DNA from: Comamonadaceae bacterium
Lineage (GTDB): Bacteria; Pseudomonadota; Gammaproteobacteria; Burkholderiales; Burkholderiaceae_C
NCBI GenBank assembly: GCA_947479935.1
Contig: CANKBG010000001.1
Span: 62,001-126,000 of the forward strand
Reading direction: 5' to 3'
Length of the DNA: 64,000 nucleotides
The position numbers and the translations under genes are program-made. The notes under the pieces are model-generated. The model saw only the letters and a list, made by a program, of their open reading frames with translations, searched no databases and was not told the origin of the DNA. Of the stretch, positions 8,820 to 20,405 are shown piece after piece (position 1 is the stretch's first letter; every line of letters begins with the position of its first letter).

Positions 8820-10889
8820 TTATTTCACAACGGCAAACAAGCTGCTGTAGTCGTCGGTCCAAGGCACAAACCCGGTTTGAGTGTCCAGGGTTTTTGCTGC
8901 CTTCAAAGCAATTTGCTCAAACCATTTTGGGTCCTTGGCCAGCAAGGCCCAGCTAGAAGAGTAAATCAATCGAGCATCGTCCCCAGGGTGTTCAATAAGT
9001 CGGGCTGTGAAACCTAGATTTTGTGCGGCAGTTTGAATAACGGGTTGAAGATCTAAAAAACGGTTGGTGATGTGGACAGCCATCACGCCATTGGGCTTCA
9101 AATGCCTTGCATATTGTTCAAAGGCCTCGCGTGTGAGCAAGTGAACGGGCACTGAATCACCTGAAAATGCATCGACCACCAAGACGTCGAATTGTTGTGG
9201 CGCTTCAGCTTCGAGTTGGAGTCTTGCATCGCCTAGAACAAGTTCTGTTGGGGCCAATGTCTTCGATAAAAAACTGAAGTTATTTTTTGCCATGGCAATT
9301 ACAAGCGGATCGATTTCATATATTCGATATGTGTCGCCTTGTCGGCCATACGCAGCCAAGGTGCCTACTCCCAGACCAATCACGCCAACGCGAACAGGGC
9401 CCTTGGCCATTTGTGCAGTGATGGCAAGTCCAGCGCCCGCATCGGCGTTGTAATAAGTGGTGGGCTCCATGGCGCGCTCAGGTGCTAAGAATTGTTTGCC
9501 ATGCACAATTTGTCCATGCAACATGCTCCGGTACCCGTCATTAGGGAATGCGAAAACTCTCAGACTGCCATAGAAATTTCGACCCTTCATTTCCACACCC
9601 GCCGCTTCTTGAATGTGGTCGTTCACGGACACGGTAGTCAGCGCCACCAGCGCCACTGCGCTGCCAACAGCAAAAATGGGCCTGCGTAACCCATGCGCAA
9701 TGGTTGGCCATGCGCGCCAAAGCGACAGGCTAACCACCATGCCACTCAAGATCACCGCCACCGATAATTCGTAGTGGCCATCGAATGCATAAGGCGCTAT
9801 TACGCCAACAAAAAAACCACCTAAAAATCCGCCCACAGACAACATCAAGTAATACAAGGTGAGGTGCTTTGTTGGAGGTTGTTGCAAAGCCAGTTCACCG
9901 TGACAAACCATGCACACCACAAAAAAGGCTGCCAGGTTGATGCCCATGGCCAACAGCAGCGGCAAATCTGACAAGCCCAGCATGGGCAGGTAAGCCAGAG
10001 CGCTCAGACTCAAAATCATGAGCGGTAAAAAAATTCGTCTTTGGTACCAACCCTGTCGTTCAAAACACAAAATGAAGGTCAACAGATAAAGTGCCAATGG
10101 CGCAATCCACAACAAGGGAATGGGGGCAATGTTTTGTGTGAGGTAGCTTGTGTCAGCCACCATCAAAATAGAGGGGCAGGCTGCCAACGCTACCCACAGC
10201 AGCAATTGGCCAGCTTGTAGGGTTGAAGAAGCCTTGTTCTCGGTCTGGTGTTCGAAGGCTTGCGTTTCATCGGCTAAGGGCTTGGCATGCCTGCCACGCC
10301 AAGCCAAGCTGCCACAGGCCAGCACAAACAAAATAAACAAACCCGACCATGCCAAAGACTGCCAACGAGTAGGCAACAAAGGTTCCACCACAAAAGGATA
10401 TGCCAGTAAGGCCAACATAGAGCCAAAGTTAGACAGCGCAAAAAGTCTGTAAGTCACCGCGCCGCTGCGTTCACGCGCAAACCAAGCCTGCACCAAAGGG
10501 CCCGTTGTTGAGAGCACCAAGTAGGGTAGGCCAATAGACGCACTTAGCAAACCCAAAATACGCACAGTTGGATTCTCGCCTCCTGTGGGTTTCCAAACTT
10601 CACTTGGCGTGATGGGCAGTAGAAATACACAAACGGCCAGCAACGCCATGTGAAGAAGGCTTTGGCGCAGAGGCGACAAGTGATTGACCACCCAGTGCGT
10701 GTAGAGATAGCCCAACAGCAGCAGGGCTTGGAAAAACAACATGCAAGTGGTCCAAACTGAGGCAGATCCGCCAAACCAAGGCAGGATCATTTTGCCCATC
10801 ATGGGCTGAACTTGAAAAAGTAAGAAGGCACTGAGGAAAATGGTCAGGCCATAGAGAAATACGGCCTTGAGATCAGTGGATTTTTGCAT
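8820..10889 (-). CDS. Membrane protein with C-terminal spermidine-synthase-like domain
   Basis: 689 residues. The first 430 or so form about a dozen hydrophobic helices (starting AVFLYGLTIFLSAFLLFQVQ), followed by a soluble Rossmann methyltransferase-like domain: GVIGLGVGTLAAYGR, IYEIDPLVIAMA, LGDARLQLE, DVLVVDAFSGDSVPVHLLT. This is the known family of fused MFS-like/spermidine synthase proteins. The C-terminal fold binds decarboxylated or ordinary S-adenosylmethionine-like ligands, but true polyamine synthesis has not been established for most members. It is the first gene of the minus-strand group that continues into the Bug protein and the monooxygenase. Confidence 0.85.
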   Translation of the reverse strand: MQKSTDLKAVFLYGLTIFLSAFLLFQVQPMMGKMILPWFGGSASVWTTCMLFFQALLLLGYLYTHWVVNHLSPLRQSLLHMALLAVCVFLLPITPSEVWKPTGGENPTVRILGLLSASIGLPYLVLSTTGPLVQAWFARERSGAVTYRLFALSNFGSMLALLAYPFVVEPLLPTRWQSLAWSGLFILFVLACGSLAWRGRHAKPLADETQAFEHQTENKASSTLQAGQLLLWVALAACPSILMVADTSYLTQNIAPIPLLWIAPLALYLLTFILCFERQGWYQRRIFLPLMILSLSALAYLPMLGLSDLPLLLAMGINLAAFFVVCMVCHGELALQQPPTKHLTLYYLMLSVGGFLGGFFVGVIAPYAFDGHYELSVAVILSGMVVSLSLWRAWPTIAHGLRRPIFAVGSAVALVALTTVSVNDHIQEAAGVEMKGRNFYGSLRVFAFPNDGYRSMLHGQIVHGKQFLAPERAMEPTTYYNADAGAGLAITAQMAKGPVRVGVIGLGVGTLAAYGRQGDTYRIYEIDPLVIAMAKNNFSFLSKTLAPTELVLGDARLQLEAEAPQQFDVLVVDAFSGDSVPVHLLTREAFEQYARHLKPNGVMAVHITNRFLDLQPVIQTAAQNLGFTARLIEHPGDDARLIYSSSWALLAKDPKWFEQIALKAAKTLDTQTGFVPWTDDYSSLFAVVK

Positions 10890-10993
10890 GCAGGCGATTA
10901 TGACGCTTCAAAGACAATTTTCACTGAAATGTGTCAGTCCATGACTTATCTTTAGACGCACTTTATGGGCTAGTTTGAGGGTGCGTTTTAATG

Positions 10994-11016
10994 AAAAAGC
11001 CCCGTAAGGGGCTTTT
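10994..11016 (-). terminator. Rho-independent terminator, ancestral tRNA-Ser terminator
   Basis: The arms AAAAGCCCC (10995-11003) and GGGGCTTTT (11008-11016) enclose a GTAA loop. Read on the minus strand, the stem is followed by TTTTT. It lies 13 bases beyond the left direct repeat of the integrative element. In the empty site it would follow the 3' end of tRNA-Ser directly, so it was probably the terminator of that tRNA before insertion. Confidence 0.7.
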
Positions 11017-11028
11017 CTATTGGTTTTC

Positions 11029-11042
11029 TGGCGGAAGCGGTG
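11029..11042. repeat. Left attachment repeat (attL) of the integrative element
   Basis: TGGCGGAAGCGGTG, identical over 14 bases to the 3' end of tRNA-Ser at 16258-16271. The copy covers the CCA end, the discriminator base, the 3' strand of the acceptor stem and two more bases. It is a duplicate made by site-specific integration; the adjoining bases on both sides differ. Confidence 0.85.
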
Positions 11043-11135
11043 TCCGCCCTACATCATCGAATTTAAAGGCTTGTGAGGGACATTTTTTTAAATACCATCA
11101 TCTATGCCTACATAGAATTTTACGAACCTTAAAAG

Positions 11136-11387
11136 TCATTTTTTAGGGCTGCTTCCAATCAAATCAAAGTAATTGCATTTAAGCACATCTGACAAGGCGC
11201 AAATGATTGCAAGTGATGGGTTTGCAATTGCTCTTTCAATTTGACTTGCATAAGTTCTATCTATCCCCGCCTGAAATGCAAGTTCCTCTTGGGTCAACCC
11301 AAGTTTTTTCCTTGCCTTCTTCACGTTTAGGGCTAGGTTTGATTGGGCAAGTGACAGAGAGGTGGTTTTCACGCCCCCTAATATCAA
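11136..11387 (-). CDS. XRE-family helix-turn-helix regulator of the element
   Basis: About 78-83 residues, almost entirely one Cro/CI-type DNA-binding domain: NVKKARKKLGLTQEELAFQAGIDRTYASQIERAIANPSLAIICALSDVL, written here as its parts LGLTQEELAFQAGI (first helix and turn) and YASQIERAIANPSL (recognition helix region). No ATG is available; the start is TTG 11387 or GTG 11372. It diverges from the lipoprotein gene across about 80 bases that probably hold both promoters, so it likely represses itself and that gene. Size and sequence resemble control proteins of restriction systems, but no restriction or methylase gene is present here. Confidence 0.8.
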   Translation of the reverse strand: MILGGVKTTSLSLAQSNLALNVKKARKKLGLTQEELAFQAGIDRTYASQIERAIANPSLAIICALSDVLKCNYFDLIGSSPKK

Positions 11388-11467
11388 TAATTCGAGATTG
11401 TCAGTCCACGGAAAATAGTCTACATTTATAAATTAAATATTTAACAAAAAACAAGATAGGTGTGGCC

Positions 11468-12286
11468 ATGTACAAATTTCTCACAATAACCATTCACATT
11501 GCTTCTAATTTTCGATTAGCAGTTCCATTTATATTGATTGCAACTATTACGGGTTGTGGTGGAGGTGGGAGTTCAAGCCCAAGTGCAACGCCAGTGCCTG
11601 TAATTGTTTCGACAAATACTTTTAATTTTCAAAGTGCTTGGCAAAAGTTTAATACTTCGCAATATTCCAAATCTTTGAGTGTTTCTGGGGCTTGCAGTGG
11701 TTCTATGACCTATTTGCATTCAGCAGCAAGTCAACCAATGGCTTTCGATTACAGCGATTTATCATTTCCACATCCTGTGGGTAACGTAAATCCCGCTTAC
11801 TTTGTTTGGAATCAACAACAAATTAAATCCGACCTTCTGGGATGCGCTGCGTCAGCATCAAGTACGACTACCAAGGTCTATTTCGATGCAACCACATTTG
11901 CCCCATTTGGTTACATAGGTGGTACTGCATATAACGGTGCAACTTCCTATCAATCGACTTTTAGGGAGTTTAGTACCAGAGTTGTTTTGCCAAGTGCCAT
12001 TAAGGTTGGGGATGCCGGAATAGTGGGTTCGGTGATGACTTACAACATATCTAACTTTAAAAAATATGGAACACCTCAAGGACAAACTGACGTCACATAC
12101 CTTGTTGAAGCCGATACCTCTAGCACTGCATTGGTGAACATAATTAGCAAGGTCTATGACGCAAATGGAAAATTAACTTTGGTAGACCAAACAAGGTATC
12201 AAATTGATGTTGGAAACAATCTAACGCTAAGTTCAATTGACCAACAATATTCCGATTCGCTATCCCTGCGCATAATCGCGAAATAA
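11468..12286 (+). CDS. Putative lipoprotein of unknown function, element cargo
   Basis: About 272 residues. The N-terminus has a hydrophobic signal and a lipobox ending in TGCGGGGSSS, so the mature protein should begin with a lipidated cysteine and a flexible Gly/Ser/Pro linker. The rest is rich in Ser, Thr, Tyr and Asn, as in an exported beta-rich domain, with two further cysteines (in GACSGS and LLGCAAS) that could form a disulfide. I do not recognise a family. ATG 11468 has GATAGG upstream; GTG 11462 would add two residues. It is the only plus-strand gene of the element and is AT-rich, so it looks like acquired cargo, possibly altering the cell surface. Confidence 0.7.
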   Translation: MYKFLTITIHIASNFRLAVPFILIATITGCGGGGSSSPSATPVPVIVSTNTFNFQSAWQKFNTSQYSKSLSVSGACSGSMTYLHSAASQPMAFDYSDLSFPHPVGNVNPAYFVWNQQQIKSDLLGCAASASSTTTKVYFDATTFAPFGYIGGTAYNGATSYQSTFREFSTRVVLPSAIKVGDAGIVGSVMTYNISNFKKYGTPQGQTDVTYLVEADTSSTALVNIISKVYDANGKLTLVDQTRYQIDVGNNLTLSSIDQQYSDSLSLRIIAK

Positions 12287-12339
12287 TATATCGACAAAAA
12301 GCAAGGGCTGATTGTGGTTTGCAAATGCGAAAATCACAA

Positions 12340-12795
12340 TTAAAACGGCCCTGCTAAAAATTCTTCGATTGCAAGTGATTCTGGGCTTCTTGACCTAACT
12401 ATTCCAATTCGATGCGCAGGAGTTAAGCCTAGTTCTTTCATTATTTGAATTGCTCGATTTAACGCCTTATCCGCCATTGTGAAGTGCATGCTAGGGCCTG
12501 ATGTAGCCCCGTTGTTGTAGGCTTCCACAAGGCCTTTAGAAGCCATTTGGCGTATGCATTGGACATACAAATCAACTTGAGTGCCTAGCATTTGAATTAG
12601 CACCATGTTTGCGTAAGTATTGACACCTTGTGAAGACTCAATTAGTTCAACAATTTCGGCTTCAAATAATTTTTTATTCCAATCATCCGAAGGTGATAGC
12701 CAATCCATTGGTTGGAAGGTCAATTTTTCAGGTATGACTTTATTTTTCTTCTCACTTTTAACGATGTGGAATTTGTAGTCGTAGGAATTTTCCAT
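12340..12795 (-). CDS. P27-family phage terminase small subunit-like protein
   Basis: 151 residues. The C-terminal half fits the P27 (Terminase_4) small terminase pattern: an alpha-helical stretch, then SGPSMHFTMADKALNRAI and IMKELGLTPAHRIGI, corresponding to the usual 'NP..k.ae.a...i..l...LGLtP.sR.rl' motif. Small terminases select phage DNA for packaging. No large terminase, portal or capsid gene is nearby, so it cannot package alone; in phage satellites a solitary TerS redirects a helper phage's packaging machine. The first 60 residues are charged and not typical. It is the last gene in the minus-strand series after the relaxase (82 bases apart). Confidence 0.7.
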   Translation of the reverse strand: MENSYDYKFHIVKSEKKNKVIPEKLTFQPMDWLSPSDDWNKKLFEAEIVELIESSQGVNTYANMVLIQMLGTQVDLYVQCIRQMASKGLVEAYNNGATSGPSMHFTMADKALNRAIQIMKELGLTPAHRIGIVRSRSPESLAIEEFLAGPF

Positions 12796-12877
12796 TTTTG
12801 TGTATAGCCTTAAAGGGCTACCCCCTTTTGAAATTTTGGTTCGTGCGAAATTGGCCTCCGACCTGCTATGCGCTTAT

Positions 12878-13978
12878 TCATAAATCATTAAGTTCTTGAT
12901 TTGTTCGTAACTGTCGGTGTTGTTGAATTTTTTCAAGTGTTTCAAGAACCAGAAAATCGGAAGTCGCCCGCACAATTCCTTTGTTTGGTCTATGAATTTC
13001 CTCAAATTCACCAGTTATGGAATTGAAATAGGCGCTTGGCTTTTGGAGTTCCCTATCAACTTTGCTAGAACCTATTTCATCTTCGGGTTCAATCACTTTG
13101 TTTGTTTTTAACGTGCACTTATTTTGGGGTGATTTTTGGAAGCCTACAGAGCATATGTTTACATTTTTTTCGTTTACAAAGCCTATATGCTCTGGCATCT
13201 GAAATCTGCTGCCTTTACCAGATGATGTGAAAATTTGGGCCATAGTCTTTTGAGGCTTAGTTAATTTTTCGCGCACTTGAATTCCTGTGTCCAAAGCAAA
13301 ATTCAATGGTGCAGAAAATATTGCATCTTTGATGCTTTGCCAGACCACTGAGTTGGTTGCGGGGTCTTTCGTGTGGACTAGGTGATTGATGATGTCCTGA
13401 GCGATATTGTTTTTAGCCAATCCAAATAACTTTTTCGGAGGTTTTGAAAAACCATAACTTTTGGCAACATTTGCATGGAATGACTCTTGAAGTGCTACCA
13501 GTCGCTTTCTATCCCCAACAAGTCGTGAACCATTCATCTTTCCATCAACTAATGGCAACAAAAGTATGTGACAGTGCGGAGACGATTCATCACGGTGTAT
13601 GTCTACGCTAAGCAATTCGCCGCCTATTTCTTTGCTAACCCATTGCGTGCAACTTTGAAAGAATTCGTATTCACTAATTGTGTGTGAACTTGGTAGTGAA
13701 AAAACACATTCAATACCTCTTACGGCATCCTTCCGAAGCGGTTTTTTTTGTGAATTTTCTATGAGTAATAATGCTTTATGGGCAATTGCTTCTGGGCTAC
13801 TGTCATCCAATATTGACTGATTTAAATTAGTCAAACTCGGATTTATTTTTTCTGATTTGATTAGTTCTGCTGCGATAGTTCGTTTGTTGTGTTTTGCGGC
13901 ATTCAGGATAATATTTTTCCCCTTGAGTTTTTTCATTCGGAAAAATGCAAATTGAATATTTGGATGTATTACATTCAT
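12878..13978 (-). CDS. MobV-family relaxase (Mob/Pre type)
   Basis: 366 residues. The N-terminal 190 residues follow the pMV158 MobM layout: RMKKLKG near the start, motif I KHNKR with His30 at the position of the MobM nucleophile His22, then INPSLTNLNQSI, the conserved RKDAV, and motif III with HRDESSPHCH, the three-histidine metal site. The segment LPLVDGKMNGSRLVGDRKRL and the following helix also match. The enzyme should nick one strand at an oriT and stay covalently attached for transfer. The C-terminal 170 residues are not recognised. The ATG is two bases after the alpA stop, so the genes are coupled. No type IV secretion or coupling protein is encoded here. Confidence 0.85.
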   Translation of the reverse strand: MNVIHPNIQFAFFRMKKLKGKNIILNAAKHNKRTIAAELIKSEKINPSLTNLNQSILDDSSPEAIAHKALLLIENSQKKPLRKDAVRGIECVFSLPSSHTISEYEFFQSCTQWVSKEIGGELLSVDIHRDESSPHCHILLLPLVDGKMNGSRLVGDRKRLVALQESFHANVAKSYGFSKPPKKLFGLAKNNIAQDIINHLVHTKDPATNSVVWQSIKDAIFSAPLNFALDTGIQVREKLTKPQKTMAQIFTSSGKGSRFQMPEHIGFVNEKNVNICSVGFQKSPQNKCTLKTNKVIEPEDEIGSSKVDRELQKPSAYFNSITGEFEEIHRPNKGIVRATSDFLVLETLEKIQQHRQLRTNQELNDL

Positions 13979-13980
13979 TT

Positions 13981-14175
13981 TCAGCCCCTGCGCTGCGAAA
14001 TGAAAAAATCAACATCTTCAGTGTTCCACACCGTAATGCGGTCGCTTAATTTGAAAGGTTTTGGAAACTTACCTTCCTTAACCCAACGCCAGATTGTTGC
14101 AGGGCTAACAGGAATACGCCCAGTCCTGTCCTTTGAGTTTGCCAATTCAGAAATGCGAATTACTCTCTTTGACAT
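13981..14175 (-). CDS. AlpA-family transcriptional regulator / excisionase
   Basis: 64 residues, a MerR-like winged helix of the AlpA (Phage_AlpA) family: RVIRISELANS, VSPATIWRWVKEGKFPKPFKL and WNTEDVDFFISQR, which is the signature 'pvs.sTiwRwvk.G.FPkP..l....v.W...dv..wi'. AlpA proteins turn on integrase or excision in P4-like elements and satellites. The ATG is preceded by GAAGGGA at good spacing. It is the first gene of the alpA-mob pair and is transcribed in the same direction as the integrase but from its own upstream region. Confidence 0.87.
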   Translation of the reverse strand: MSKRVIRISELANSKDRTGRIPVSPATIWRWVKEGKFPKPFKLSDRITVWNTEDVDFFISQRRG

Positions 14176-14291
14176 GTTTATCCCTTCTACAACTCTATTT
14201 TGAAATCACCCAAACAACGATATGTTGCTTTAAAAGGTTGTATTCAATTCAGTGGTATGTCGTTAGGTTAGGGAATGCTGTTTCAATGTGC

Positions 14292-14324
14292 AAAGACCAC
14301 GAATTTTAAAATTTGGTGGTCTTT
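14292..14324 (-). terminator. Hairpin between the int operon and alpA
   Basis: AAAGACCAC (14292-14300) and GTGGTCTTT (14316-14324) form a 9-bp stem around an AT-rich 15-base interior that can itself partly pair. It lies ten bases beyond the end of the integrase-coupled gene. T-runs occur on both sides (TTTTT after it on the plus strand, TTT on the minus strand), so it may stop transcription either way. A role as part of an origin of transfer for the neighbouring relaxase cannot be excluded. Confidence 0.5.
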
Positions 14325-14333
14325 TTAAAGTAA

Positions 14334-14900
14334 TTACAAATCAAATGGATTGTTGGCGGCGTTTGGCGTTGCTTTGATTTTTGGGGCTGCTTTTCGACTA
14401 ACCCTTTCGTAACTTCTTTTACCTAGTACGTTAGGCAACAAGTCGCGCAATTCCTTCTCTGTCATGCCTAGTTGTTGTGCCGCCTTTTGTCGCCCCAATC
14501 TTGTTTTTGGATATTTTTCAGGGTCGGAAAATAAATGTCGGATAAGCCCCGTCTTCACTGGTTGCCAATTTAGTAAAGCCGCACTACCACTTCTGACGGG
14601 CTTGGCATGCATACCTTTGCGAAATGGTTTTGGAAATACATCATCCCAACTTGTTTTTTGTCCGGAGTTGACTTGATTAAAGCAAAGCATATATGCGTCA
14701 CTTAGCCATGTGGGTAAAACTAATTTTGATTCAAAGCATATAGCCATTCCAATAAGTGGATTTGCAATAAATTCGGATTTTTTCGTACTCAAAACTTGAG
14801 CGGCTTGCCATTGGCGATGGGGACTCCAAGGAAAATCTTTGCTATTCGGCTGCGCTAACGCTTCCTGCTCATCCGCGGTAAAGGGGTCAAAACTAGTCAT
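14334..14900 (-). CDS. Unknown protein translationally coupled to the integrase
   Basis: 188 residues, no signal peptide, basic C-terminus. I do not recognise the family. Two parts stand out: a central hydrophobic stretch (IGMAICFESKLVLPTWLSDAYMLCF, in short LPTWLSDAYMLCF) and a C-terminal segment GRQKAAQQLGMTEKELRDLLPN that looks like a helix-turn-helix, followed by a lysine-rich tail. The first base of its ATG overlaps the integrase stop (ATGA at 14900-14897), so the two proteins are probably made in proportion. A role in DNA binding, directionality of recombination or helper interaction is an inference from position only. Confidence 0.65.
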   Translation of the reverse strand: MTSFDPFTADEQEALAQPNSKDFPWSPHRQWQAAQVLSTKKSEFIANPLIGMAICFESKLVLPTWLSDAYMLCFNQVNSGQKTSWDDVFPKPFRKGMHAKPVRSGSAALLNWQPVKTGLIRHLFSDPEKYPKTRLGRQKAAQQLGMTEKELRDLLPNVLGKRSYERVSRKAAPKIKATPNAANNPFDL

Positions 14901-16114
14901 GCTTCTTTCCTAATTGGGATGACATTTGGTTCTTTGTTTGGATTCGCTTCTATGAATTTAGCCCAATCGTTCATTAAATCCACACGGCGTTCAAATAAGT
15001 CACCTCTTTGGTAAACCGCTTCTGTTTTATTTTTTACTGCGTGTGCTAAAGCCATTTCACGCAATTCCGGTGAGTAAGTGGTCTTTTCCGCTGCCCACAT
15101 TGTGAAAGTGCTTCTGAAGCCATGTGGAACGGCGTTGACCTTCATACGGCGCAATAACTGTGTAAGTGCCATATCCGAAAGCGGTCTGTTGCTGCTGCTT
15201 TGGAAAAGAAAGTCGTTACTTTCAAACCGTGGCAATGAACGAATTAAGTTAATTGCTATGGAATTTAGCGGGACACGGTGTTCCCTTCCCGCTTTCATTC
15301 GACTTGGGGGGATAGTCCAAATGGCATTTTCTAGGTCAAATTCGACCCATTGGGCTTCTCTGGCCTCACCTGAACGGGTGGCGGTGGCTATTAGTAGTTC
15401 TAAGCACTTAGCACTCATGCTTTCTAGATTGCGCAGTTGAGAAATAAATGTGTTGATTTGCTCGAATGGGAGTGATTTATGCGAAGTTCGATTGTTAACA
15501 GAAGATGGCTTAGGAAGCGTTGCATCTAGATTGCCGCGCCATCTAGCGGGATTTTCGAGTGGGCGATACCCCCTAACCGCTGCCCACGACAGGATTAATT
15601 CAATCCTGTTTCTAATACGCACCATAGTTTCGTTTTTGGAATTCCAATCGGGTTCTATGACTGAAAGTACATGACCAACTTCAATATTTCGAACATGAAG
15701 GTCGCCAATAATTGGGTGGACATAGGTGTCCAATGTATTTACCCACTGTTGCCCGTGCTTGGGGTTTTTCCAAGAATCCCGTCGCATTTTTATGAATTCA
15801 TCGGCACACCTTCTAAAAGTCCACTCAACCAGTGACTTTCTATGCCGCCGTTCTGCGATGGGGTTTTCGCCGTTTTTTATTGATTCTTTAATTTCAGTTG
15901 ATTTAACTCTAGCAAGCGAAAGCGAAATGGATGGATAACTTCCTAAGCCAATGTCATGCCTTTTGCTTCCAATCATTGTGCGAAGAATCCACGACCGTGA
16001 ACCGTTTTTGCCGATGCAAAGGTAAAGACCACTTACCCCTCCAACGGCGTGCAATCCGCTTGTGGATAGATTTTTGACCGCAAGGGCGTGTAATTCTTTG
16101 GCGATTTTTGGCAT
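14897..16114 (-). CDS. Tyrosine site-specific integrase, P4/DUF4102 type
   Basis: About 405 residues. The N-terminal arm-binding domain is DUF4102-like (MPKIAKELHALAVKNL, HAVGGVSGLYL, GLGSYPSISLSLAR). The catalytic domain has Arg in TATRSGEAREAQW, the HGFRSTF box, and the C-terminal ALAHAVKNKTEAVYQRGDL containing the nucleophilic Tyr, so all active-site residues appear intact. It should recombine the 14-base core in tRNA-Ser. I chose ATG 16114 because AGGGG lies nine bases upstream and the MPKIAKEL start is usual for the family; an ATG at 16135 would add seven residues. Its gene is next to the tRNA, pointing away. Confidence 0.92.
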   Translation of the reverse strand: MPKIAKELHALAVKNLSTSGLHAVGGVSGLYLCIGKNGSRSWILRTMIGSKRHDIGLGSYPSISLSLARVKSTEIKESIKNGENPIAERRHRKSLVEWTFRRCADEFIKMRRDSWKNPKHGQQWVNTLDTYVHPIIGDLHVRNIEVGHVLSVIEPDWNSKNETMVRIRNRIELILSWAAVRGYRPLENPARWRGNLDATLPKPSSVNNRTSHKSLPFEQINTFISQLRNLESMSAKCLELLIATATRSGEAREAQWVEFDLENAIWTIPPSRMKAGREHRVPLNSIAINLIRSLPRFESNDFLFQSSSNRPLSDMALTQLLRRMKVNAVPHGFRSTFTMWAAEKTTYSPELREMALAHAVKNKTEAVYQRGDLFERRVDLMNDWAKFIEANPNKEPNVIPIRKEA

Positions 16115-16231
16115 TTTCCCAATCCCCTCATACATCCCATCAACGAAATGTGTAATGTGATGATATGCCTTAAGACGCTATTGGTCTAGGCTACAGAGGG
16201 GGAAATGGCTAAATGATGCCAATTTGAGACG

Positions 16232-16255
16232 AAAAAAAAGGTCGTAAAACGACCT
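16232..16255 (-). terminator. Element-borne terminator now serving tRNA-Ser
   Basis: On the minus strand AGGTCGT, a TTT loop and ACGACCT are followed by eight T (from the plus-strand A-run 16232-16239). It begins three bases past the CCA end of tRNA-Ser. It lies inside the element, so it replaces the displaced chromosomal terminator at 10994-11016. Confidence 0.8.
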
Positions 16256-16257
16256 AT

Positions 16258-16271
16258 TGGCGGAAGCGGTG
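16258..16271. repeat. Right attachment repeat (attR), 3' end of tRNA-Ser
   Basis: TGGCGGAAGCGGTG, the second copy of the 14-base direct repeat, here as the functional 3' end of tRNA-Ser. Integration therefore leaves the tRNA gene intact. Confidence 0.85.
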
Positions 16272-16345
16272 AGATTCGAACTCACGGGCCCTTTCGAGCC
16301 GCCGGTTTTCAAGACCGGTGCAATCGACCACTCTGCCACACTTCC
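16258..16345 (-). tRNA. tRNA-Ser (anticodon UGA)
   Basis: 88 bases on the minus strand, with CCA encoded. The acceptor strands GGAAGTG and CGCTTCC pair (one G-T), the discriminator is G, and the anticodon loop CTTGAAA gives UGA with stem ACCGG/CCGG-type pairing. There is a long variable arm (GGCTCGAAAGGGCC region) and a T-loop GTTCGAATC, all as expected for a class II serine tRNA. The gene is the integration target of the adjacent element and would read UCA and related serine codons. Confidence 0.95.
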
Positions 16346-16421: not shown

Positions 16422-16449
16422 TGACCCCAATTAAGTGACCCCAATTAAG
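16422..16449. repeat. Tandem 14-bp duplication at the ureG stop codon
   Basis: TGACCCCAATTAAG occurs twice in a row (16422-16435 and 16436-16449). The second copy contains the ureG stop codon (16445-16447). A related CCCAATTTGGGG lies about 40 bases away. The 14-base unit may be a small slippage duplication or a remnant of a REP-like sequence. Confidence 0.75.
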
Positions 16450-17098
16450 CGAGCATGCCTTGGGTTTCGATGAAGGTGATGACTTCGGCAAGGCCGGTTT
16501 GGGTTTTGAGGTTGGTCATGACGAAGGGTTTGAGGCCTTTGGGAGTGGTGCGCATGCGGGTGGTATCTGCATGCATCACGCCTAGGTCCGCGCCTACGTA
16601 GGGAGCCAGGTCGGTTTTGTTGATGATGAAGAGGTCGCTTTTGGTAATGCCGGGGCCACCTTTGCGTGGTATTTTTTCACCGGCTGCCACATCGATTACG
16701 TAGATGGTGAGGTCGGACAATTCGGGGCTGAAGGTGGCTGCCAAGTTGTCGCCGCCGCTTTCCACAAACACCACATCGGCGTTGGGAAATTTTTCCAGCA
16801 TGCGGTCAATGGCTTCAAGGTTGATGGACGCGTCTTCGCGGATGGCGGTATGAGGGCAGCCGCCAGTTTCTACGCCCATGATGCGATCTGCTTCCAGTGC
16901 ACCACTGACTGTGAGTAAGCGTTGGTCTTCTTTGGTGTAGATGTCGTTTGTGATGGCCACCAGATCCCATTTTTGGCGCATGCTTTTGCAGAGCATTTCT
17001 AGCAAGGTGGTTTTGCCAGAGCCCACGGGGCCTCCAATGCCGACGCGAAGCGGGGGTAGTTTTTTGGTGCGATGGGGAATGTGGTGCAGTGCGGTCAT
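16445..17098 (-). CDS. ureG: Urease accessory GTPase UreG
   Basis: 217 residues. The P-loop [11 protein letters not shown] lies near residue 20, followed by [14 protein letters not shown], the CPH metal motif in [32 protein letters not shown], and [13 protein letters not shown] (the NKxD guanine specificity motif). UreG hydrolyses GTP to drive nickel delivery to apo-urease with UreF, UreD and UreE. It is the last gene of the ureA-(ureJ-like)-B-C-E-F-G series; its ATG overlaps the ureF stop by four bases. Confidence 0.97.
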
Positions 17099-17769
17099 GA
17101 TCTAAAAAGTCGAGAGTATTGTGTTTCGTGTCTGGCAGACATCACGGCCAGCATGGGACAAAAAGCTTGGCGATCGTCATCGCTTAAAGCAATGGCGTTT
17201 TGCACAGCTTCGGGAATTTCGTGGGCCAGTCGGGCCAGTATTTTTTGGCCAGAAATTTGGCCCAAGGGTACTGCTTTAAGCGCCGCTTGTGTCATGTTCT
17301 CGGCCCAACCAAAAGCATAAGCCTGAAGAGCGTTTTCAAGCGGTGCTTTGGCCAATGACAAAGCCAAGGACATGGCCATGGGGTAGGTGGGGCGAAGTTC
17401 GCTGCACAAAGCAAGTGCTTGTGCGGTGGCTTTGTTTTGAATTCGCAGCCAGTCTAAAAGCGAGCGCCCCATCTGCTCTGTTTGCAATCTCATTTCATGG
17501 GTTTCGCGCGTGGCGTGAACCCACGCGCTCAGTTCTTTGAGTCTTGCCATGTTCAAAATTTGCCAAGCAGGAATGGCTTGTGCCATCAGGGCCATGTCGC
17601 CCCGTGCTTGTGACAAGTGAAGTTGATCGGCCAACCAATCTGCACACGAAGATTCATCGTGCACATGTTCGTGATCGATGGCTGCTTCAAGCGCTTCAGA
17701 ATAGGAGAAGCCACCCACTGGCAATGCAGGTGAGGCCAACCAAATGAGTTGCAGAAGCTCAGTGGTCAT
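17095..17769 (-). CDS. ureF: Urease accessory protein UreF
   Basis: About 224 residues. It starts [24 protein letters not shown], the hallmark of UreF (here [15 protein letters not shown]), and contains the helical core with [21 protein letters not shown] near residue 170. UreF binds UreD on apo-urease and gates the UreG GTPase. I use ATG 17769 because the longer reading frame overlaps ureE by 130 bases and adds unrelated sequence. It overlaps ureE by 11 bases and ureG by four. Confidence 0.94.
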
Positions 17770-18313
17770 GCTTGCAGTGCGGGCCGTGAACATGGGGGTG
17801 TTCATCTGCGTGGTCATGTGAATGATCGTGTTCGTGTGAATGTCCAGAACCGCCATGCTTGGCACCGTAGGCACCCCCTTCAGGTTCAAAGGCTTCTTCC
17901 ACGGTGTTCACCATCAAGTGCATAGACCGCAGCATGTCAGCCAACACTGCATCGGGTTCAATTTTAAGGTGATCTGGTTTTAACTCGATGGGCACATGGC
18001 GATTGCCCAAATGGTAAGCAGCCCTTGTGAGGTCAAACGGACTTCCGTGCTGTGGACAGGTGCTAATGCGCAGCAAAGTTTGGGGTGCTGCCGCCACTTT
18101 CACCAAACTTCCATCTTCGGCTACCAACACATCGCCACCCCGCACCACATGTCCGCGCTGCAAAAACACAGACAAAACGCGATTTGTAGAATCGGTCACT
18201 TGGAAGCGACTTTTTTGTCGCACGTCCCAATCCAGTGAAACAGTGGGTGCACGTTTGACCAATGTTGGCGCCAGACCTTGGCCACCGGAAATTAATTTAG
18301 AGCAAGTAAGCAT
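17759..18313 (-). CDS. ureE: Urease nickel metallochaperone UreE
   Basis: 184 residues. The N-terminal domain contains [12 protein letters not shown] and a beta-rich core ([22 protein letters not shown]). The second, ferredoxin-like domain includes [14 protein letters not shown], the UreE signature with the nickel-binding histidine, and the C-terminus is a histidine-rich tail (about 15 His in the last 32 residues, as in [18 protein letters not shown]). UreE collects Ni2+ and passes it to UreG and urease. The tail suggests nickel storage capacity. It lies 42 bases downstream of ureC. Confidence 0.96.
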
Positions 18314-18355
18314 TCAATCCATCAAATAAAAACCAAGCACATCAGAGTCTGTGCA

Positions 18356-20074
18356 TCAGAATAAGAAATAACGCTGCGTCATGGGTAAACTAACGGCAGG
18401 TTCGCACGTTAGCAATAAACCGTCTGCACGCACCGCATAAGTTTGGGCATCCACTTCCATCTTGGGTGTGTAGTCATTGTGAATCATGTGGCGTTTGCCC
18501 ACACCTCGAATACCTTTAACGGCAGACAGTGTTTTCTGCAAACCATATTGTTGCCCGATGCCTGCGGCCATGCCGGCTTGAGATACAAATGTGAGAGAGC
18601 CGCGGGCCAGTGCACCACCATAACTGCCAAACATAGGTCGATAGTGAACTGGCTGAGGCGTTGGAATGGAAGCGTTGGGGTCACCCATGGCGGCCATGGC
18701 AATGAAGCCGCCTTTCATGATGATGGCAGGTTTCACACCAAAGAAGGCGGGTTTCCAAATCACCAAGTCAGCCCACTTGCCTGCTTCTATGCTGCCCACT
18801 TCATGGCTGATACCGTGCGCAATGGCAGGGTTGATGCTGAGCTTAGCCATGTAGCGTTTCACGCGTGCATTGTCATGACGCTCAGTGTCGCCTGGTAACT
18901 TGCCACGCTGCATTTTCATTTTGTGGGCGGTTTGCCAGCATCGCAAAATGACTTCTCCCACGCGGCCCATGGCTTGACTGTCTGAACTGAACATGCTGAT
19001 AGCGCCGAGGTCATGCAGGATGTCTTCTGCTGCAATGGTTTCTTTGCGAATACGGCTTTCTGCAAAGGCCAAGTCTTCCGCTATAGAAGGGTCGAGGTGG
19101 TGGCAGACCATCAACATGTCAACGTGTTCGTCAAGGGTGTTGATGGTGTAGGGGCGTGTGGGATTGGTGGAGGAGGGCAGCACATTGGCTTCGCCCACCA
19201 CTTTCAAAATGTCGGGGGCATGGCCACCTCCGGCACCCTCGGTGTGGAAGGTGTGAATGGTGCGACCTTTGAACGCGGCCACGGTGTCTTCCACAAAACC
19301 TGATTCGTTCAAGGTGTCGGTGTGAATGGCCACTTGCACATCTGTTTCTTCAGCCACGTTCAAGCAGTTGTCGATGGCTGCAGGTGTGGTGCCCCAGTCT
19401 TCGTGAAGTTTGAGGCCGATGGCGCCGGCCTTGATTTGTTCGTGCAATGAAGCAGGCAGGGCGGCATTGCCTTTGCCCAAGAAGCCGAGGTTCATGGGAA
19501 ACGCATCGGCTGCTTGCATCATGCGTTCAATGTTGTGGGGCCCAGGGGTGCAGGTGGTTGCAAAGGTGCCAGTGGCGGGGCCAGTGCCGCCACCTAACAT
19601 CGTAGTGATGCCACTCGACAAAGCTTCCTCAATTTGTTGGGGTGCAATGAAGTGAATGTGGGTGTCAATGCCGCCAGCAGTGACGATCATGCCTTCACAA
19701 CTGATGATTTCAGTGCCTGGGCCAATGATGATGTCCACCCCAGGTTGCGTGTCAGGGTTGCCTGCTTTGCCAATGGCTGCAATCCGATTGCCTTTGAGGC
19801 CAATGTCGGCTTTCACAATGCCCCAGTGGTCGATGATGAGTGCATTGGTGAGCACGCAGTCCATGGCACCTTCTGAATTGGTGCGTTGCGATTGGGACAT
19901 GCCATCGCGAATGGTTTTGCCGCCGCCAAATTTCACCTCTTCGCCATAGCTACCTGCTTGCAATGTGAAATCTTTTTCGACTTCAATGATCAAGTCGGTG
20001 TCGGCCAAGCGAACACGGTCGCCCACCGTGGGGCCAAACATTTCTGCATAAGCGCGTTTGTTAATCTGGGCCAT
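18356..20074 (-). CDS. ureC: Urease subunit alpha
   Basis: About 572 residues, the catalytic subunit hydrolysing urea to ammonia and carbamate. It has the nickel ligands HIHFIAPQQ (HxH), the carbamylated lysine in [26 protein letters not shown] and [15 protein letters not shown], the flap segment [22 protein letters not shown] with its cysteine and histidines, and [15 protein letters not shown] chose ATG 20074 ([16 protein letters not shown]), the usual family start, one base after the ureB stop. All active-site residues appear present. Confidence 0.97.
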
Positions 20075-20075
20075 G

Positions 20076-20405
20076 TTAGGAAGCTTTCTTGAAAGGTGCG
20101 TCAAGGGCGCCGTTGGTCAGGGCTCTAAAGCCATAGATCACGCGGTCACCCGCGTAGTCGACCAATTCCACGGTACGTTGCTGCCCAGGTTCGAATCTCA
20201 CGGCGGTGCCTGAGGCAATGTTGAGTCGCATGCCGTGAGCCGCGGGGCGATCAAATTTCAGACCGCCATTGGTCTCAGCAAAATGATAGTGAGAGCCAAC
20301 TTGAATGGGCCGATCGCTGGTGTTTTGAACCACCAGAGTGCAGGTTCTTCTGCCAACGTTCAGATTGTGTTGACCTTCGTCAATGAGGAGTTCGCCAGGT
20401 GTCAT
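20076..20405 (-). CDS. ureB: Urease subunit beta
   Basis: About 109 residues. It begins [20 protein letters not shown] and contains [19 protein letters not shown] and [18 protein letters not shown], the standard beta-subunit sequence. With ureA and ureC it forms the (alpha-beta-gamma)3 bacterial urease. ATG 20405 matches the family start, lying ten bases after the small ureJ-like gene; a longer frame (from 20447) overlaps that gene. The beta subunit is separate from gamma, as usual in Burkholderiales. Confidence 0.96.

Follow-up and report, generated by a model that had tools for sequence, protein, structure and literature searches.

Of the signs by which the way of transfer of a mobile element is commonly judged, a relaxase is taken to indicate conjugation and a terminase to indicate transfer by phage (PMC11389934). 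The described systems closest to the locus reported here are small phage satellites, in particular the PICMI of Vibrionaceae, which are described as packaging concatemers, whose replication has been called consistent with rolling circle, and in which a gene named iolg overlaps the integrase gene in 21 of 35 subfamilies (PMC10803314). Relaxases may also act in replication, as described for ICEBs1, where the relaxase starts rolling-circle replication of the excised element and helP is needed as well (PMC3542172, PMC5714925). The subject of this paper is an island of 5.2 kb and seven genes, bounded by 14-bp repeats, at positions 11029..16271 of a stretch of 64,000 nucleotides (the window) from a Comamonadaceae bacterium. 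This minimal island carries both signs, a MobV relaxase and a solitary P27-type small terminase (TerS), with the relaxase in the position that replication-type genes take in related islands.

The island belongs to a recurrent kind in freshwater betaproteobacteria and is a variant in which a conjugation-type nickase has the replication slot. We regard it as probably, though not securely, a small phage satellite of PICMI-like layout, in which MobV would drive rolling-circle replication and TerS would recruit the large terminase (TerL) of a helper phage.

Results

The small terminase and its phage relatives

The TerS gene lies at 12340..12795 on the minus strand and encodes 151 residues. The original prediction called the product a small terminase, and this is borne out by Terminase_4 of Pfam (PF05119, 3.9e-7; 30.8 bits against a cut-off of 24.7), by phrog_83 of PHROGs (7.1e-10) and by the phage neighbourhood of its relatives. 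With the NCBIfam model sm_term_P27 (TIGR01558) it scores 19.9 bits, under the cut-off of 45.6. Searched at E up to 0.01, the 50,697 phage records gave a sole match, gene 1 of P19250A, a siphovirus of Methylopumilus planktonicus (PMC7678222); it is 33% identical and stands before the large terminase gene. A scan of viral contigs with a TerS profile (A1) confirmed 119 relatives, of which 80 were kept. A P19250A-like TerL follows TerS in 79 of the 80, and the remaining contig stops 8 bases past TerS. A separate set of 29 weak viral matches was left out of the analysis. By dN/dS (0.05 and 0.09) TerS is conserved in the relatives; for the TerS of the window the ratio was not computable, being saturated. 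The island's own genome has no second Terminase_4 gene, and a search of it for a P19250A-type TerL, run with no positive control, gave no match.

Solitary TerS genes in other islands

Homologous TerS genes without TerL were found at ten other betaproteobacterial loci, nine of which are integrase islands. The scan covered 84,980 species, each represented by a single genome, and gave at least 12 loci, a lower bound because the scan pattern was narrow. These 12 comprise eight integrase islands (L113, L114, L116 and L119-L123), two loci with TerS at a contig edge and no TerL (L115, L118) and two phage loci with TerL (L117, L124). L116 is the same element as L029, which was first found in the genus of the window; L031 is a ninth integrase island, L030 is a contig-edge fragment, and at L032 TerS lies near a tRNA-Ser gene, with no integrase found. 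The TerL and portal of P19250A matched none of the 14 solitary-TerS loci fetched (13 distinct; L115 and L118 are included and the phage loci are not).

Seven of the eight scan islands adjoin a tRNA or tmRNA gene, and the other, L122, starts at a contig edge. Att-like repeats enclose TerS in L113 (15 bp), L114 (30 bp) and L116 (47 bp), and in L119, L120, L121 and L123 no repeat of at least 13 bp was found. In L113 the integrase is at the far end and a remnant lies beside the tRNA (by eye), and such islands can thus stack. The relatives are rare, being present in 3 of 399 genomes of the order by single-sequence search, and by profile search in 6 of the 399 (three of them weak P27 matches) and in 6 of 90 genomes of the genus (two weak P27 matches). 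Two TerS matches came from the 299 genomes searched in the family of G031: one is G031 itself, and the other, G675, is to judge by its position probably the L121 element. Weak matches to a second profile (A5) also occur in G060 and G129, on a brief look, and in G234 an HNH-like gene precedes TerS (by eye; the presence of TerL is unchecked). The TerS of G445, considered as a solitary gene, belongs to an ordinary prophage, its neighbours being TerL and portal.

Two of these loci have further cargo. The 47-bp tRNA-Val repeat of L116 (53-99 and 10089-10135) also encloses genes that resemble an ABC transporter and a regulator by eye, so the mobile unit there may include metabolic cargo and extend to about 10 kb. 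At L032 (5671-9109) the solitary TerS beside tRNA-Ser is accompanied by a type II DNA methyltransferase (PADLOC, 2e-138), and the neighbouring genes may complete a restriction system.

The position upstream of TerS

In the other islands the position upstream of TerS is held by replication-type genes. In L119 it is a family A DNA polymerase (Pfam, 1.5e-20), with homologues 70-95% identical in L120-L123; in all of these one small gene separates the polymerase from TerS. In L029 it is a RepB-like primase (Pfam 1.2e-4, under the cut-off; PHROG primase 1.6e-8), and in L031 there are Toprim and AAA genes. In the window this position is occupied by MobV. The Polynucleobacter-type islands (L119 3081-8408, and L120-L123 likewise) have an extra gene of 188-206 aa before the polymerase; a DNA polymerase seems unusual in so small a satellite-like island.

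A tree of TerS proteins was built after 60 of 79 viral proteins had been dropped as near-copies and proteins longer than 200 aa had been trimmed to their last 165 residues, leaving out L116 (the same element as L029) and the fragments L118 and L030. The TerS of the window, L113, L114, L029 and L115 form one clade (99/96), and the upstream gene differs among the four members in which the slot is visible, that of L115 being off the contig. L031 and L032 are on long branches and their placement is unsure. The satellite label changes 4 times on the tree (3-4 in bootstraps). Repeated capture of TerS by islands is suggested by this and not shown, since the starred branches force just 1 change.

The relaxase and MobV islands elsewhere

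The MobV (Mob_Pre) relaxase of 366 aa is encoded at 12878..13978 on the minus strand. Its assignment in the original prediction holds up well: the Pfam match to Mob_Pre is 3.2e-20, and residues 12-191, including KHNKR and HRDESSPHCH, align with 4lvi, a plasmid recombination enzyme of solved structure (5.8e-12). In an alignment of the window with 14 of the 17 other MobV loci (L021-L023 were left out), the motifs HNxR, HxD and HxH are kept in all 15 proteins and the full HxDExxPHxH in 9; in the window HNxR and HxDExxPHxH are both complete. We take the motif histidine to be the catalytic residue of the MobV nickase. The NCBIfam MobV model gives 87.5 bits, under its cut-off of 100, and because the NCBIfam scores of both proteins fall below their cut-offs, the MobV and TerS of the window are considered divergent members of their families.

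MobV relatives occur in 10 of the 399 genomes of the order and 8 of the 90 of the genus, the island's own genome being in both counts. MobV islands with no recognised TerS were found at 17 other loci in 16 other genomes, with an integrase at 12 of the 17 (tblastn, E up to 1e-3). A TerS profile made from alignment A5 matched none of the 17, its positive controls (L113 and L029) being rows of the profile and not independent. Scans of 10 MobV-neighbour proteins with Pfam and 10 with PHROGs (six shared) gave no terminase, and PF05119 is present in 3 of the 16 other genomes with MobV, in each case on a different contig from MobV. A conserved integrase-AlpA-MobV-TerS neighbourhood, which the original prediction proposed to look for in Burkholderiales, was not found elsewhere. 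Since MobV islands recur without recognised TerS and TerS islands without MobV, the island of the window joins two kinds of island.

Of eleven MobV loci with a tRNA or tmRNA gene that were examined, six have a repeat that overlaps it (15-57 bp), L139 has one beside it, and four have no repeat of at least 13 bp. Proteins of 201-202 aa encoded after MobV (L017, L021) look TerS-like by eye, as does an 89-aa protein of L015, and were rejected as candidates: the PHROG scan and the search of phage records (made with the L017 copy) gave the former no support, and the latter likewise had none. Beside the MobV island of L139 there are three adjacent, similar, secreted-looking genes of 141-161 aa (9826-11146), probably duplicated cargo. 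Two MobV islands at tRNA-Pro carry closely similar genes that are ParB-like by eye (L136 4522-5109, 195 aa; L138 10213-10830, 205 aa), of which that of L138 has no PADLOC match.

Boundaries and insertion site

The left attachment repeat is at 11029..11042 and is an exact copy of the right one (16258..16271), which forms the 3' end of the integration target, a tRNA-Ser(tga) gene at 16258..16345 on the minus strand (ARAGORN). The repeat, TGGCGGAAGCGGTG, has exactly two copies in the window (starting at 11029 and 16258, a spacing of 5229 bp) and none on the opposite strand. Of 500 random regions of 8257 bp each, generated by a first-order Markov model, none contained any 14-mer of tRNA-Ser(tga). 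In a congener (G417, locus L151) the site is unoccupied: the left flank and the same tRNA-Ser gene are about 30 bp apart, with no insert between them. The flank is 86% identical over 1471 bp and reaches base 10943 of the window. L151 is one of 30 loci compared, a set that includes the island's own genome and in which several loci are ended by contig edges. L155 and L170 share just 49 bp at the att end and the remaining loci have no left flank, so the neighbourhood of the island is not conserved across the genus. The GC content of the island is 41.1%, against 51.1% in the 10 kb on either side. A urease-like cluster (ureG, ureF, ureE and ureC by eye) adjoins the tRNA-Ser gene at 16445-20104. The repeats, the tRNA-Ser site and the seven genes are thus as originally described.

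The other five genes

The tyrosine integrase (14897..16135, minus strand, 412 aa) has Phage_integrase (1.8e-15) and two further integrase domains in Pfam, among them Phage_int_M (2.7e-26). It is overlapped, through ATGA, by an iolg-like gene of 188 aa (14334..14900, minus strand). Over 45 aa the product of this gene matches that of the gene following the integrase in L014 at 36%, and it has no convincing family match in Pfam, PHROGs or NCBIfam. An AlpA regulator or excisionase of 64 aa (PF05930, 9.2e-7) is encoded at 13981..14175, minus strand. An XRE-family regulator of 83 aa (HTH_3 of Pfam, 3.3e-15) is at 11136..11387, minus strand. Genes resembling it lie downstream of TerS or MobV in L031 (9326-9604), L137 (6275-6559), L138 (9525-9827) and L140 (4602-4904), and their recurrence suggests a shared regulatory part. 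The only gene of the island on the plus strand (11462..12286) encodes a putative lipoprotein of 274 aa, with a hydrophobic start followed by Cys (by eye); it has no convincing family in Pfam, PHROGs or NCBIfam and no PADLOC match, and is possible cargo. All seven reading frames are open.

Discussion

The gene content of the island fits two general definitions. It carries a packaging function, TerS only, and no virion genes, as is generally asked of a phage satellite, and it has the integrase and relaxase of an integrative mobilizable element. The original prediction left the choice between an island able to use either vehicle and a satellite that uses a nickase to start its replication. The second is favoured here, since in islands with homologous TerS the place that MobV has in the window is held by a replication-type gene; the first is considered less probable.

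In the mechanism that we propose, infection of the host, which belongs to the Limnohabitans genus group, by the helper phage would trigger excision, carried out by the integrase, the product of the overlapping gene and AlpA. MobV would then nick the excised circle, and the ensuing rolling-circle replication would produce head-to-tail concatemers. The TerS of the island would recognise island DNA and recruit the TerL of the incoming phage, probably one of the P19250A clade, and concatemers would fill the phage heads; with headful packaging, a head of 38.7 kb would take about 7.4 copies. The XRE regulator and the lipoprotein would serve as regulation or cargo.

Several points weigh against this. 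The exact MobV-TerS pair was seen once, in the island of the window, and no such island came up when viral contigs were scanned with MobV, with TerS or its close group A3, and with the polymerase or the primase. The 213- and 209-aa proteins upstream of TerS in L113 and L114, from the same TerS clade, have weak matches to phage replication initiators (E 0.013 and 0.034). No second gene like helP, which ICEBs1 needs, was recognised in the island. A search with a pMV158-type nick motif gave one site with 1 mismatch, inside the gene overlapping the integrase, and none conserved among 13 relatives. Those MobV islands in which no TerS was recognised may be mobilizable elements of an ordinary kind. 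Finally, P19250A was isolated on Methylopumilus, a different bacterium from the host of the island.

That no nick site was found also counts against the next best explanation, that the island is a two-vehicle element whose circle is mobilised through MobV by a co-resident conjugative system and packaged through TerS by a helper phage, one nick serving both. MobV is a conjugative relaxase family (711 of 830 matching plasmid records are typed mobilizable), it recurs without recognised TerS in the 16 other genomes, and evolved plasmids of S. aureus that use both routes have been described (PMC8494744). However, PF03135 (VirB4-type), the sole mating family sought, is absent from the island's own assembly (93.8% complete; the control was positive in 1 of 14 genomes), and the other TerS islands have replication-type genes and not relaxases in the slot. 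We consider this explanation unlikely; if it were true, the island would bridge phage satellites and mobilizable elements.

Somewhat less likely again is a mobilizable element whose TerS is a weapon, disturbing the packaging of the helper or protecting the cell and not packaging the island. TerS relatives can adjoin defence-like cargo, as does the one at L032 with its methyltransferase, but TerS is found repeatedly in minimal islands alongside an integrase and replication-type genes, the set expected of satellites. It is highly improbable that the island was left over by chance from a decayed prophage, a possibility that the original prediction had raised against itself, or from stacked elements. 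In favour of this, there are just seven genes, the exact pair is single and L113 indicates stacking, but all frames are open, the repeats and an unoccupied site exist, and similarly ordered solitary-TerS islands recur in other hosts.

If, as the satellite reading holds, MobV makes concatemers, relaxases become candidate replication genes of small islands that are at present classed as mobilizable elements. The TerS clade also indicates a group of helpers that can be tested for the islands of Limnohabitans and Polynucleobacter relatives.

Comparison with known systems

Among the publications retrieved on satellites with a relaxase, MobV or a terminase, no island of this kind was found, which does not establish its absence in print. 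A search naming Limnohabitans or Polynucleobacter relatives likewise found no wording on phage satellites in what it returned, although such reports may exist. VEIMEs and tycheposons are marine chromosomal islands proposed to move in virus particles (PMC10803314, PMC11389934), and a relaxase-TerS pair may occur among them.

With P19250A and its relatives (KX815270) the island has the TerS family in common, but P19250A is a full phage and the island has none of its other genes. From the side of mobilizable elements it resembles iMOB, which as described combine an integrase and their own relaxase with no mating apparatus, and differs from them in its phage-type TerS (PMC11389934); the search for a conserved nick motif revealed no oriT in it. 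The PISP and cf-PISP of Vibrio also combine plasmid functions with satellite genes, and the PISP TG93 has a small terminase. These elements are, however, described as episomal, with capsid-related genes, parA, repA and a ProQ/FinO-like regulator, and TG93 as having no integrase (PMC13230959).

The island shares with Gram-negative PICI an integrase, alpA and replication genes, and terS is among the PICI packaging genes; the replication gene is pri-rep in PICI, whereas the island has a relaxase and no pri-rep. For PICI, packaging and interference have been demonstrated, and the island is known from its genes alone (PMC6092414). Closest in layout are the PICMI (PMC10803314), which are likewise small, with int, an ATGA-overlapping gene, alpA and a replication gene in that order and no capsid genes; the likeness of the overlapping genes is one of position only. 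According to their description, PICMI have no terS, integrate next to fis and belong to another host group, whereas the island carries its own terS and lies in tRNA-Ser. Packaging of concatemers is known for PICMI and would be expected for the island, where the place of the DUF3987/DUF5906-type primase is taken by MobV.

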